Positions 23,052 to 44,161 of a stretch of 64,000 nt of DNA are shown here, piece after piece (the first letter of the stretch is position 1; each line of letters begins with the position of its first letter). The stretch is from Devosia sp. ZB163. Its GTDB lineage: Bacteria; Pseudomonadota; Alphaproteobacteria; Rhizobiales; Devosiaceae. A program made the translations under genes and the position numbers. Location: positions 186,001-250,000 of the forward strand of contig NZ_JAQRMY010000004.1 in the NCBI RefSeq assembly GCF_028613635.1, given 5' to 3'. Below the pieces are notes generated by a model. It was not told where the DNA came from, made no database searches, and saw only the letters and a program-made list of their open reading frames with translations.

Positions 23052-23476
23052 ATGAGCCTCATGATCACGAGCAGGAGGTAGCCGATGCCGAGCGCAAGGC
23101 AGAGCGGGGAGTAGTTCTTGCGGTCGAGCGTGGCGAACGGCTCCTCGGAGAAGCGGGCGCGCCAGCCGTCGGTGTAGCCGATGGCGCCGCGGCCGAGGAA
23201 CAAAGCGGCGAGGAGGAGCCCGACCACCGAGAGCCACCAGCCGCCGGCAGTGTGATCGGCCAGCGACAGCGCGAATACCCCGGCGGCAAGGACGAGGATC
23301 GACACGGCGAGCGAGGCGAGGCGCGGCACGCGCGTCACGCCGGGGCGGCCGATCACCGTGCGCGCCAGCAGCGCGGGGTCGCGGATCGGCCAGGGGCTGC
23401 CGATGGCCCACATGAAATGGGCGATCGCCACCGCCAGCAGCACGACGAAGATCAGGGCGGCGACGAACATGCTCAT
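23048..23476 (-). CDS. DUF3995 family membrane protein in the urease cluster
   Basis: The 142-residue protein has four hydrophobic helices (about residues 5-26, 53-75, 80-95 and 124-141) and the [10 protein letters not shown] segment typical of DUF3995. It lies between ureF and ureG, overlapping each by 4 bases (ATGA on both sides), so it is clearly part of the urease accessory operon. Known urease accessory sets do not require it. A link to nickel or urea is possible from context, but the protein lacks obvious metal-binding His or Cys clusters. Confidence 0.85.
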
Positions 23477-24273
23477 GAGCGGAATATCCTCGGTTCCAGC
23501 GTCTCGTGACGCATCTGCGCGATGTCAGCGGCGTAGGCGATCGCGCCGATATCGGCAAGTGTCGCGGAGGCCGCGGATTTCGCCAGCGCGGCGACGCGGG
23601 GTTCGAGGGCGGACATGATCCTGAGGCCGTCCGTCTGGCCCAGGGGCACGAGGCGGATGGCGACCGAGACCTGCCCGTGCACGGTGGCGGTCAGCCAGGC
23701 GAGAAGGGTGTCCTCGAGGTCGATGTCGTGGGCGGCGGCAATGGCGCCGACGGCGATCGGATAGGGGCAGGGCTGCGGCAGGCGGGCCAGCACCTCGGCC
23801 GGCCACAGGCTGGCGGCGCGGACATAGCTGTCGCCGGTGATGGTGGTCTCCATCCAGCGCTCGCGGCTCGAGACGAGCGCGAGGCTGAGGTCGGCGAGGG
23901 TGGACAGGGCGGTGATGGTGGCCTCCCCCCTCCCATCCTCCCCCGCAAGGGGGGAGGTGCCGCTCTGAGTTTGCGGCGCGATCGTGCCCGACACGCCGGC
24001 CGGCACCCTCCCCCTCGCGGGGAGGGTTGGAGAGGGGGGAGCGGCAGGCTCGGTCTCCCGCACCGCGCGCCAGGCGTGGGCGAGGAGGATGGCATCCGTC
24101 CTGATCCCGCCATGCGCCAGCGCGCCCTCGATCCAGCTCATCAAGCGTGCGGAATCGGTTACGCGACGATCTGCAATCGCCATCTCAAGTCCGGCCGACC
24201 AGGCGAAGGCCCCCACCGGGAAGGCGGGCGACAGCCAGGTGACGAGCTTCTGGAGCGCAGCGGGTGACGTCAT
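23473..24273 (-). CDS. ureF: urease accessory protein UreF with in-frame repeat insertion
   Basis: UreF acts as a scaffold with UreD and UreG in urease maturation. The protein begins [20 protein letters not shown] and ends [17 protein letters not shown], as expected for the family. It is 266 residues long, about 40 more than a usual UreF. The surplus lies near residues 75-120 ([35 protein letters not shown]) and is encoded by a GC-rich palindromic repeat inserted in frame. The insert falls between two helices, so activity may be kept. The start overlaps the stop of ureE (ATGA). Confidence 0.94.
23923..24041. repeat. palindromic repeat inside ureF
   Basis: Complementary outer arms (CTCCCCCC at 23923-23930 and GGGGGGAG at 24034-24041) enclose inner hairpins (CCTCCCCCGCAAGGGGGGAGG on the left, CCTCCCCCTCGCGGGGAGG on the right) and a core with GGCGCGATCG. 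The copy at 37829-37942 has the same plan and core. It is read through as part of UreF. Confidence 0.85.
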
Positions 24274-32150: not shown

Positions 32151-33092
32151 CTAGAGATGCCAGAGGCGGGGCAGGGTGCCTGCGCCGGAGAGGTGAGCGA
32201 TAAGTGGCGTGATGATCCGGCGCAACGCAAGCCCCGAAGGGGCCATGGCGCGCACGACGAGGCGTTCGCCGACGACGCTGGCGCCGGTTGCGTCGGTGAG
32301 GAGATCGCGGACCCGGTCGAGCTTCAGCTCGGCATCGGCGCCGACATAGAGGAGGGTCGCGAACGCGTTGGCGCCGTCGAGCAGGCCCAGCCCGTCGCGT
32401 TCGAGCGGGTCGGCGCTCAGCCGAGTCGCTTCGGCGTGGATCAGGCGGCCGCCGCGCCGGATGCGCCAGTTGTCGCGGAGGTGGGCGTTGCGCGCGGCTT
32501 CGCCCATGGCCTCGCGGCCGAGGAGGATCGCCTCGATGGCAAAAAAGCTCGCGTCGGGCGCGAGGTCGACCTCGAGGCCGCGATCGAGCCGGGCGCCCTC
32601 GAACAGGATCGTCTCCTGCGGCAGCCAGTCGAGATGGGCGCCCGCGCCGACCGTGATCGTCGAGCGCACCGTGGCGTCATCCCCGAGCGAGCGGTAGACG
32701 CGCTCGCAGGCCTGCGTGGTCAGCACCACCCGGGCGCCAGGCGCGGCGTCGATCTCCCAGGCGACATCATCCCCACCGGTGAGCCCGCCGGCGGTATTGA
32801 TCAGCACGGCCTGGAGGCTTTGGTCATGGGTATGCGGCAGCCGGATCTTGGCGCAGCCCTCCTGGAAGAGGGTGGTCAGCCGGGTGCGGCCGTCGAGCAC
32901 GCGCGTGCCGAGACGACCGACGCCGCGGGCGCGCTGGTGGCGGGGGAGGGCGGCCGCGTTGCTCCCCTCCCCCTTGAGGGGAGGGGTGGGGGGTGGGGGT
33001 CCTTCGGTTCTTGAACCGGGCCACCCCCTCCCTCGATCCCTCCCCTCAGGGGGGAGGGAGGCGACGGCTGCGGGCTCGGGTTGGATCGCCAA
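32151..33092 (-). CDS. ureD: urease accessory protein UreD with in-frame repeat insertion
   Basis: UreD binds apo-urease and forms the nickel channel with UreF and UreG. Family blocks are clear: [47 protein letters not shown], and FATLLYVG. The frame opens with a TTG at 33092, overlapping the urtE stop region. Residues 12-45 ([30 protein letters not shown]) are encoded by a palindromic repeat read in frame; without it the protein has the usual length of about 280. Translation could also begin downstream of the repeat, although no good start codon is evident there. Confidence 0.93.
32962..33060. repeat. palindromic repeat in the 5' part of ureD
   Basis: CTCCCCTCCCCCTTGAGGGG on the left and CCCTCCCCTCAGGGGGGAGG on the right are hairpins that also pair with each other. 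They flank a core with GGTGGGGGT and CCACCCCCTCCCTCGAT. The element is about 99 bp (33 codons) and keeps the ureD frame. The copy at 36082-36187 has nearly identical arms. Confidence 0.85.
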
Positions 33093-33816: not shown

Positions 33817-33901
33817 GCGGGGAGGAGTTGGGGGTGGGGGTCCTTTTGCCCTCGACCCGCACCACCCCCACCCTCGAAACCTCCCCGCGAAGGGGAGGGA
33901 G
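33817..33901. repeat. palindromic repeat between urtD and urtE
   Basis: GCGGGGAGGAGTTGGGGGTG on the left complements, imperfectly, CACCCCCACCCTCGAAACC plus TCCCCGC on the right. Core and arms belong to the same family as the ureD copy. It lies in the short gap upstream of urtE. Confidence 0.8.
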
Positions 33902-36081: not shown

Positions 36082-36187
36082 CTCCCCTCCCCCTTGAGGG
36101 GAGGGGCTGGGGGTGGGGGTGGCGAGGAGAGCACGGCGGTGACTGCACCACCCCCTCCCTCGATCCCTCCCCTCAAGGGGGAGGGAG
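36082..36187. repeat. palindromic repeat between urtB and urtC
   Basis: The arms CTCCCCTCCCCCTTGAGGGG and CCTCCCCTCAAGGGGGAGGG, with the core ends GGGGGTGGGGGT and CCACCCCCTCCCTCGAT, match the ureD copy almost base for base; only the central 30 or so bases differ. It lies directly beside the other-subtype element in the urtB-urtC gap. Confidence 0.85.
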
Positions 36188-36218: not shown

Positions 36219-37973
36219 TCATTGCTCCACCGCCCGGCCCTTCAACGCAAACAGCCCCCTGGGCCGGCGCTGGATGAACAGGATGATCAGCACGAGGATC
36301 AGGATCTTGGCCACCACCGCGCCGGCGTAGGGCTCGAGGAATTTGTTGGCGATGCCGATCGAAAGCGCGCCGACCAGCGTGCCCCAGAGGTTCCCGACGC
36401 CGCCGAAGACCACGACCATGAAGCTGTCGATGATGTAGTTCTGGCCCAGGTTCGGCGAGACGTTGTCGATCTGGCTCAGCGCCACGCCCGCAAGGCCGGC
36501 GATGCCCGAGCCGAGCCCGAAGGTCATGGCGTCGACGAAGGGCGTGCGGATGCCCATGGCCGAGGCCATGCGGCGGTTCTGCGTGACGGCGCGCATCTGC
36601 AGGCCCAGCGAGGTTCGGTTGAGCACGGCGAGCAGCGCCACGAAGACCGCGATGGCGAAGATCACGATCCAGAAGCGGTTCCAGGTGATCGAGAGCCCAC
36701 CCAGGTCGAACGAGCCGGACATCCAGCTGGGGTTCGCCACTTCCTTGTTGGTCGGCCCGTAGGCGGTGCGGATCGCCTGCTGCAGGATCAGCGACAGGCC
36801 CCAGGTGGCGAGCAGCGTTTCGAGCGCCCGGCCGTAGAGCCAGCGGATGATGCCGCGCTCGATGGCGATGCCGATCAGCGCCGTGACGAGGAAGGCGAGG
36901 GGCAGGGCGATCGCCAGCGAGTAGTCGAGCATGCCGGGGAAGCTGCGCCGGATGATCTCCTGCACGGTGAAGGTGGTGTAGGCGCCCAGCATCACCATCT
37001 CGCCATGCGCCATGTTGATGACGCCCATCACGCCGAAGGTGATGGCGAGGCCGATGGCGGCGAGCAGCAGCACCGAGCCGAGCGAGATGCCGTACCAGAC
37101 ATTCTGCGCCACGCCCCAGGCGGCCTGCGTCTGGTTGAGCGCGTCGATGGCGCCCTGGATCTGGGGCTTCAGTTCCTCGGGCGAACTGGCGAGCACCGAG
37201 GTCAGCAGCGTGACTGCATCGCGTCCGCCGCGCGCCTTGAGCGCTGCCACGGCGGCGGTCTTTTCCTCCACCGAAGCATCCGTCTTGAGGATGATGGCAG
37301 CGCGGGCCGTTTCCATCACGGCCTTGATCTGGGGGTCGGCCTCGCTCGATAGCGCCGAGTTCAGCAGTTCGAGATTGTCGGGGTTGGCGTCGCGCAGCAC
37401 CGACTGGGCGGCGCTCATGCGGGTGCCGCGATCCTCGCTGAGAAGTGTCATCTGGCCGATGATGGTGCGCAGCCCGCGACGGAGGCCGTTGTTGACCTTC
37501 ACCTTCTCGGTGTCGCCCTTGGCGATGCCTTCGACCGCGGCGCCGGTCACCGGATCGGTCACCCCGTTGCGGGCGAGGAAGACGACCTGGCCGGTGGTCT
37601 TGGCTGCATAGAGATTGCCGTCGAGCAGCGTCTGCAACACCGGAACGGCGCGGGGATCACCCGTGGCGCCGAGAGCCTTGGCCGCAGCCTCGCGATCCTT
37701 GAAGTTGCCCGGCGCGAGAGCGTTGACGAGCGTTGTCAGCGTCGCGTCATCGGTCTGCGCGAAGGCGGGGGTGATCGAAAAGAGCAGGGCGAGAACGGTG
37801 AGCAGCGCTGCGATCCAGCGTGTCGCCACCCCCCTCCCAACCTCCCCCGCAAGGGGGGAGGTGTGGGCCGGTGCTTGTGGCGCGATCGAGCCATTCGCAC
37901 TGCTCGGAACTTCCCCCCTTGCGGGGGAGGCTGGGAGGGGGGAGGCCACAAGCCCGATCTGACCGTCGTTCAT
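36219..37973 (-). CDS. urtB: urea ABC transporter permease with long N-terminal region
   Basis: The C-terminal 300 residues are the LivH-like permease (LGSVLLLAAIGLAITFGVMGVINMAHGEMVMLGAY, ending RPRGLFALKGRAVEQ). As usual for proteobacterial UrtB, a periplasmic region of about 220 residues with HEAT-like helices precedes it. The first 50 residues from ATG 37973 are mostly encoded by a palindromic repeat ([36 protein letters not shown]), after which comes the true export segment WIAALLTVLALLFSITPAFAQ. A GTG near 37827 at the repeat's edge could be the start instead. Either way, the repeat now occupies the 5' end of the gene. Confidence 0.94.
   Translation of the reverse strand: MNDGQIGLVASPLPASPARGEVPSSANGSIAPQAPAHTSPLAGEVGRGVATRWIAALLTVLALLFSITPAFAQTDDATLTTLVNALAPGNFKDREAAAKALGATGDPRAVPVLQTLLDGNLYAAKTTGQVVFLARNGVTDPVTGAAVEGIAKGDTEKVKVNNGLRRGLRTIIGQMTLLSEDRGTRMSAAQSVLRDANPDNLELLNSALSSEADPQIKAVMETARAAIILKTDASVEEKTAAVAALKARGGRDAVTLLTSVLASSPEELKPQIQGAIDALNQTQAAWGVAQNVWYGISLGSVLLLAAIGLAITFGVMGVINMAHGEMVMLGAYTTFTVQEIIRRSFPGMLDYSLAIALPLAFLVTALIGIAIERGIIRWLYGRALETLLATWGLSLILQQAIRTAYGPTNKEVANPSWMSGSFDLGGLSITWNRFWIVIFAIAVFVALLAVLNRTSLGLQMRAVTQNRRMASAMGIRTPFVDAMTFGLGSGIAGLAGVALSQIDNVSPNLGQNYIIDSFMVVVFGGVGNLWGTLVGALSIGIANKFLEPYAGAVVAKILILVLIILFIQRRPRGLFALKGRAVEQ
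37829..37942. repeat. palindromic repeat at the 5' end of urtB
   Basis: CCCCCCTCCC (37829-37838) pairs with GGGAGGGGGG (37933-37942). Inside are CCTCCCCCGCAAGGGGGGAGG and CCCCCTTGCGGGGGAGG hairpins and the core TGGCGCGATCGAGCC. The 114 bp equal 38 codons. It has the same plan, orientation and reading frame as the ureF copy. Confidence 0.85.
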
Positions 37974-44035: not shown

Positions 44036-44161
44036 ACCCCCACCCCTGTCCCTTCCCCGCAGGGGGGCGGGAGACGCCCACACAACGCTGGGTGACCGTG
44101 GGACGAAGGCTATTCGGTCTGGTCTCCCTCCCCCTTGCGGGGAGGGGACAGGGGTGGGGAA
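44036..44161. repeat. palindromic repeat between efflux adaptor and pump genes
   Basis: ACCCCCACCCCTGTCCCTTC plus CCCGC at the left end complements GCGGGGAGGGGACAGGGGTG at the right end. The plan (outer arms, inner hairpins, variable centre) is that of the copies in the urea cluster. It fills the gap between the two efflux genes. Confidence 0.8.

Follow-up and report, generated by a model that had tools for sequence, protein, structure and literature searches.

REPINs were defined by Bertels and Rainey (2011), and in the REPIN/RAYT (TnpA-REP) systems, as the available text of that work describes them, two inverted hairpin units replicate, the gene is located between inverted units and the types of gene and repeat are matched (PMC3116915). 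According to the accessible part of the account of Di Nocera (2013), palindromic repeats of the CGTC type are most frequent in alphaproteobacteria, some of them lie inside genes, and no dedicated transposase is reported for them; a single 8–9 bp stem, a 4–5 bp loop, a CGTC tag and a CCA-type tail are given as their structure (PMC3733652). The same part of the account counts RPE-4 and RPE-6 of the Rickettsia palindromic elements (RPE) among the CGTC REPs, and it does not include Devosia (PMC3733652). RPEs are likewise similar palindromic repeats present in many copies, of which in-frame copies are kept in protein genes (PMC3733652), and bacterial MITEs of the Coxiella type are presented, in the text at hand, as short non-autonomous elements able to add protein segments (PMC5896051). 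Finally, Caulobacter VsrA (CCNA_02930), a Vsr-like nuclease with a DUF559 domain, accounts for an SOS response that arises when a methyltransferase is missing and has been proposed as a (mismatch) repair enzyme, and the consulted portion of that report makes no mention of a palindromic element (PMC12907096).

The element described here lies in frame in ureF of Devosia sp. ZB163, within a stretch of 64,000 nucleotides (the window), and belongs to a group of repeats that we named family A. It resembles the REPIN/RAYT systems in the three respects listed above, but RAYT was not found in 19 Devosia genomes and the associated gene encodes a PD-(D/E)XK nuclease of the DUF559 type, not an HUH tyrosine transposase. 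With the CGTC REPs it shares abundance in alphaproteobacteria and an occasional intragenic location; yet family A, a 115–120 bp double unit composed of inner and outer arms, differs from them in size and architecture, and its ends contain a GACGG...CCGTC stretch. The comparison with RPE made in the earlier note is apt as an analogy of behaviour. The Devosia element is GC-rich, mostly intergenic and DUF559-associated and resides in a free-living host. The statement in the same note that no such system is known in this bacterial group needs a qualifier, given the alphaproteobacterial CGTC repeats and the intragenic copies among them (PMC3733652, as far as its text was available). Unlike bacterial MITEs, family A has no detectable target-site duplication, and in contrast to the repair role proposed for VsrA (PMC12907096, from the part at hand), we propose Devosia DUF559 as a mover of palindromes. 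In open-licence PMC papers we found no link between DUF559 and palindromic repeats, and this link is also new relative to the earlier note. Taken together, we consider it fairly probable that the ureF element represents the short version of a REPIN/RAYT-like system, with a DUF559 nuclease standing in for RAYT.

As the earlier note had described, ureF of the window contains a GC-rich palindrome of 119 bp with outer and inner complementary arms (Table 1). When the fold of 23915–24050 (minus strand) was compared with dinucleotide shuffles, z scores of -5.4 with DNA and -6.5 with RNA parameters were obtained, and 0/200 shuffles were as good either way. A search for repeat pairs at default settings gave no pair within 23880–24080, which is explained by the shortness and imperfect match of the arms. 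No stop interrupts the frame, as had been claimed for both sides of the element, and the Pfam UreF (PF01730) match at residues 38–223 spans it. UreF is indeed longer than usual, yet the surplus, previously put at about 40 residues, is somewhat larger and amounts to 47 (266 aa vs. 219 aa in L073, a close relative without the insert).

Table 1. Coordinates of ureF and of the palindromic elements in the window of Devosia sp. ZB163.
Feature	Position	Strand	Remarks
ureF, 266 aa, carries the insert	23473..24273	-	Pfam UreF (PF01730) 9.3e-29; predicted fold matches 4hi0, 3sf5, 6jc4
Family A palindromic element, in frame in ureF	23923..24041		minus strand codes residues 79-119, ending ...GRGEAT
Outer arm of ureF element	23923..23934		pairs with 24029-24041; sequence and folds
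Inner hairpin 1 of ureF element	23937..23957		
Inner hairpin 2 of ureF element	24007..24025		
Outer arm of ureF element	24029..24041		pairs with 23923-23934; sequence and folds
Family B palindromic element	32966..33057		N-terminal end of ureD ORF
Family B palindromic element	36086..36184		between two transporter permease ORFs
Second family A copy	37829..37944		before or at the beginning of an urtB-like ORF for a permease of the urea/branched-chain type

The nearest relatives of this UreF are Devosia records with 78–79% identity (UreFs of 78 loci). An alignment of 24 UreFs, the check proposed in the earlier note, gave a clean gap where the insert-free rows lack the segment. Three of the proteins, all of 266 aa (L025, L026, and L027), share with the window UreF the palindrome itself, its site and its orientation. 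The 284-aa UreF of Devosia sp. Root413D1 (L028) has at this site a longer palindrome of another family, and the 238-aa UreF of Devosia sp. 66-14 (L043) retains a single-hairpin in-frame remnant of a palindrome that was remodelled in place by internal deletion; 18 other relatives are devoid of the segment. The segment is present also in UreF of genome G015 (L106). Its arms are nearly perfectly complementary in L025, L026, L027, and G015, and the spacer between them varies. In a tree of 55 UreFs, a subset of the 78 loci from which the insert columns were removed, the seven complete carriers form one clade (support 94/88) and the other 48 proteins are without the segment. L080 (Devosia sp. Bin1), left out of this tree and placed separately in a 29-row tree, has the initial residues of this insert and then breaks off, its contig ending within the palindrome; it groups with an insert-free row, so that two changes are needed, this placement resting on 73 residues only. 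As L080 stands apart from the seven carriers on so short a sequence, a single event is not certain, and the data fit one insertion event as well as two at this position. L028, in turn, is nested in the carrier clade, which suggests a renewed hit at, or overwriting of, the ureF site. The break of the Devosia sp. Bin1 contig within the ureF palindrome looks as if assembly had failed at the hairpin, and draft genomes probably show too few palindrome copies.

Alignment with relatives, comparison of the DNA and the tree thus agree with the proposal that a palindromic repeat was inserted in frame and survives as an extra segment of UreF: insert-free relatives exist, the carriers share the palindrome, and further copies of the element are present elsewhere in the genome, so that neither condition named as refuting in the earlier note holds. 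Judged from these sequence comparisons, the palindromic DNA of ureF is an insertion into the gene. An ordinary GC-rich loop specific to the family, with no insertion involved, could account for a segment common to seven to eight relatives, but is scarcely conceivable, since 48 of the 55 UreFs lack the segment and the same DNA occurs at about 25 strong places of the genome; the empty sites in relatives and the dispersed copies rule it out. An assembly artefact is unlikely, as the segment was found in separate assemblies.

To describe the encoded segment we compared five orthologues in ten pairs and obtained dN/dS values of 0.44–1.51 for the insert vs. 0.10–0.21 for the rest of UreF, which points to a nearly unconstrained, passenger-like stretch. 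In the AlphaFold prediction the insert forms a loop between helices 56–74 and 110–132 with pLDDT of about 58 (mean for UreF 85.1), and the predicted fold has 4hi0, 3sf5, and 6jc4 as its top PDB matches. The model suggests that the inserted loop is probably disordered. We also considered that the insert was co-opted and that a new property of UreF explains its persistence. The segment does persist between orthologues separated by as many as 0.46 synonymous differences per site and the frame is kept in every complete copy; however, a required UreF would keep its frame in any case, dN/dS is near 1 for the insert, the predicted confidence is low, and the segment was replaced by an unrelated family in L028 and shrank in L043. 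Co-option therefore appears very improbable. On the insertion reading, a dispersed non-autonomous element made of two inverted hairpin units and a short spacer would have landed in frame in ureF, and two features would have let it survive there, namely the scarcity of stop codons in most frames of the element and the location of the site in a loop that joins two UreF helices; it would be translated as a nearly unconstrained, probably disordered loop.

Searching the genome with the element, as the earlier note had advised, returned 64 matches, palindromic places being counted on both strands. The inner-hairpin pattern gave 238 forward-strand matches in the 4.59-Mb genome, 73 of the paired form, vs. 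0 for the reversed-pattern control. A covariance model (R1) was built from 13 family A copies and gave 25 strong matches and about 20 weaker ones in the own genome; for this count duplicates on both strands were merged and six weak places (33–41 bits) dropped, leaving 45, of which 25 reached at least 77 bits. R1 matches were present in 17 of the 19 same-genus genomes when up to 60 candidates per genome were scored. Family A consists of two inverted hairpin units and a spacer, and at least two further families (B and C) share this architecture. In family A 95.9% of pair cells were standard vs. 91.8 in shuffles and the covariation score was 0.227 vs. 0.146, above all 500 shuffles; two of the five pairing measures, namely pairs with two-sided changes (70/500 shuffles as high) and pair types (477/500), were no better than shuffles. 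In 92 full copies, taken from several genomes, complementarity extends some bases past the ends of the model, and the two termini bear GACGG and CCGTC. These copies gave no sign of target duplication, the longest word shared by the flanks being 2.58 vs. 2.61 in shuffled pairs; direct words are not in excess in the flanks, and a DDE-type MITE with target duplication is unsupported.

Most of the 45 own-genome copies are intergenic. Only the ureF copy is clearly inside a conserved gene, and no second clear in-gene copy was found among the 45. Most copies are open in at least three of the six frames (range 0 to 6). A screen of 105 elements for in-gene location included 20 loci preselected for long open frames and gives no fair in-gene rate. 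At L146:1340-3274 (C1:728582-728698 of the own genome) a copy of family A is in frame with a 645-aa ORF that matches O-antigen ligase downstream of it, a possible in-gene case. Within the window, at 37829–37973, the second family A copy has no stop in any of the six frames, and it may provide the permease ORF either with a 5′ leader or with an N-terminal extension. The family B palindrome at 32966–33092 codes the first stretch of the ureD ORF, where a translation start before or after it is possible, and lone inner hairpins of the same type with no detected partner are located at 33880–33898 and 44127–44145.

In-frame insertion of palindromes recurs, as seen in CobN. With the element model, family A copies were located within the CobN/Mg-chelatase genes of G012 and G011, and the two genes carry them at different positions. 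Comparison of 15 Devosia CobNs revealed four regions that are filled in different species by differing proline-/glycine-rich segments, and a fold z below -3 was determined for 24 of the 29 CobN segments vs. 0 of 45 conserved CobN stretches. In CobN of G005 (L274/L316) a segment of about 160 aa comprises a complete DUF559 domain, in frame between palindrome-coded arms, and other species have palindromes without DUF559 at this site.

DUF559 (PF04480) was detected in 17 of the 19 same-genus genomes, with at least 76 matches. Simple hairpin expressions had a match within about 200 bp at 25 of 30 DUF559 loci (hand count). In a flank test we compared the left 300 bp with the reverse complement of the right 300 bp around DUF559, using 50 of the 76 listed matches plus the C2 copy of the own genome. 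In Devosia 40 of 50 DUF559 loci scored above the 99th percentile of shuffles and 39 reached a score of 14 (median 31.5 vs. 9); all six own-genome copies passed. None of 500 random intervals had a flank score of at least 14, and none of 84 intervals shifted by 900 bp within the same DUF559 loci passed. Outside Devosia, within the order, 16 of 26 loci passed vs. 0/520 shuffles, two of the initial 28 loci being dropped for too short flanks. Ten of the 50 Devosia loci and 10 of the 26 others had no such repeats at the threshold, which counts against DUF559 as a mover. At L306 (G002) the DUF559 frame is interrupted by a stop; the long inverted repeats on its two sides are almost perfect, and their hairpins adjoin the gene.

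Family A itself flanks DUF559 at L322, L326, L330, L311, and L297 (five genomes), one flank holding a full copy and the opposite flank a half copy, and the DUF559 frame of L297 runs into the same 15 residues as the window UreF. The arms of the element are shared with DUF559 loci of five genomes, but DUF559 is not a DDE transposase; for one DUF559 protein of the family A loci, a match to the solved structure 3hrl was obtained ("Endonuclease-Like Protein", E 2.4e-14). None of the six own-genome DUF559 copies has family A arms, so the family of the ureF element is either orphaned in this genome or served by another nuclease. RAYT (Y1_Tnp, PF01797) was matched in 8 of the 61 genomes of the whole search and in none of the 19 same-genus genomes, the own one included, which rules it out as a mover for the genus sample.

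Similarity of DUF559 proteins correlated with similarity of their arms (rho 0.43, 50 loci; L306 was left out for its in-frame stop and L160 added, here and in the DUF559 tree). After removal of pairs with similar outer flanks rho was 0.345–0.351, with a permutation maximum of 0.17. The five family A loci lie close together in the tree of DUF559 proteins, yet they do not form one clade, and two changes are needed, not one. At the level of genomes, at least three hairpin matches were found in 20 of 25 genomes with DUF559 vs. 5 of 36 without it (Fisher p 2.4e-7; 61 genomes of the order, kinship ignored); five of the 25 have fewer than three, and the five DUF559-less genomes hold 7–38 hairpin matches. 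The control pattern also differs slightly between the DUF559 groups (p 0.028; 61 genomes, kinship ignored). The table of R1 against DUF559 for 45 genomes has counts of 28, 2, 2, and 13 (p 1.3e-7, kinship ignored), and covers the genomes searched for both, 16 same-family genomes of the R1 search being left out. Only two Devosia genomes, G006 and G016, had no DUF559, and it was these same two that had no R1 match.

These data bear on whether the palindromes require a dedicated enzyme at all. They might be copied by general replication or recombination (template switching, gene conversion), DUF559 being near them only through a shared tolerance of intergenic places. The mostly intergenic position of the elements and the remodelling of L043 in place by internal deletion agree with such copying, but it explains neither the two-sided inverted repeats at DUF559 vs. 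0/84 shifted intervals of the same loci nor the matching of arms to nuclease sequences, and local processes hardly give dispersal to dozens of unrelated places. We regard it as unlikely.

More serious is a second alternative, the main rival of the reading that we prefer, in which DUF559 is a homing-type guest that settles in or beside palindromes, these being its empty sites, and the palindromes spread otherwise. Homing endonucleases related to Vsr exist. DUF559 belongs to the Vsr-like nucleases (PMC12907096, from its available text), and at the family A loci it lies beside a full and a half copy, as would suit a guest; the G005 CobN likewise holds DUF559 in frame where other species have palindromes without it. 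However, an independent guest explains less simply that nuclease and arms co-vary and that palindrome-rich genomes almost always have DUF559; no other mover is known, RAYT having been looked for in the genus and not found (19 genomes). With these points on both sides, we see homing as a possible but rather doubtful explanation.

If DUF559 does act as the mover, the following sequence of events may be envisaged. The gene of this Vsr-like PD-(D/E)XK nuclease would occupy RAYT's place between inverted copies of the hairpin unit; the nuclease would nick or cut the hairpin units, possibly in single-stranded or cruciform form, and short copies would spread in trans without target-site duplication. 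The function of DUF559 as mover, the nature of the cut and the form of its substrate, and the copying step are parts of this scheme that we infer. Not every DUF559 protein need be an enzyme of a mobile element, as Caulobacter VsrA was proposed to act in mismatch repair. On a broader scale, it seems to us an evenly balanced question whether DUF559 nucleases move a large class of palindromic elements in Hyphomicrobiales that has so far gone undescribed. This class would correspond to REPIN/RAYT but be based on a nuclease, and its short copies, and at times whole nuclease genes, would have repeatedly landed in frame in host proteins such as UreF and CobN.

Palindromic repeats of alphaproteobacteria have been described, in the accessible part of the account, as lacking a dedicated mover (PMC3733652); if the proposed scheme is true, DUF559 would be that mover. 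An abundant domain of unknown function would thereby gain a role, a large class of "spurious" proline-/glycine-rich protein tails would be explained, and an enzyme-substrate pair that is directly testable would be at hand. The ureF and CobN sites offer, as series provided by nature, the empty state, the full insert, its replacement, a remnant, and an insert that includes the nuclease, which can be used to study how genes gain disordered segments from mobile DNA.
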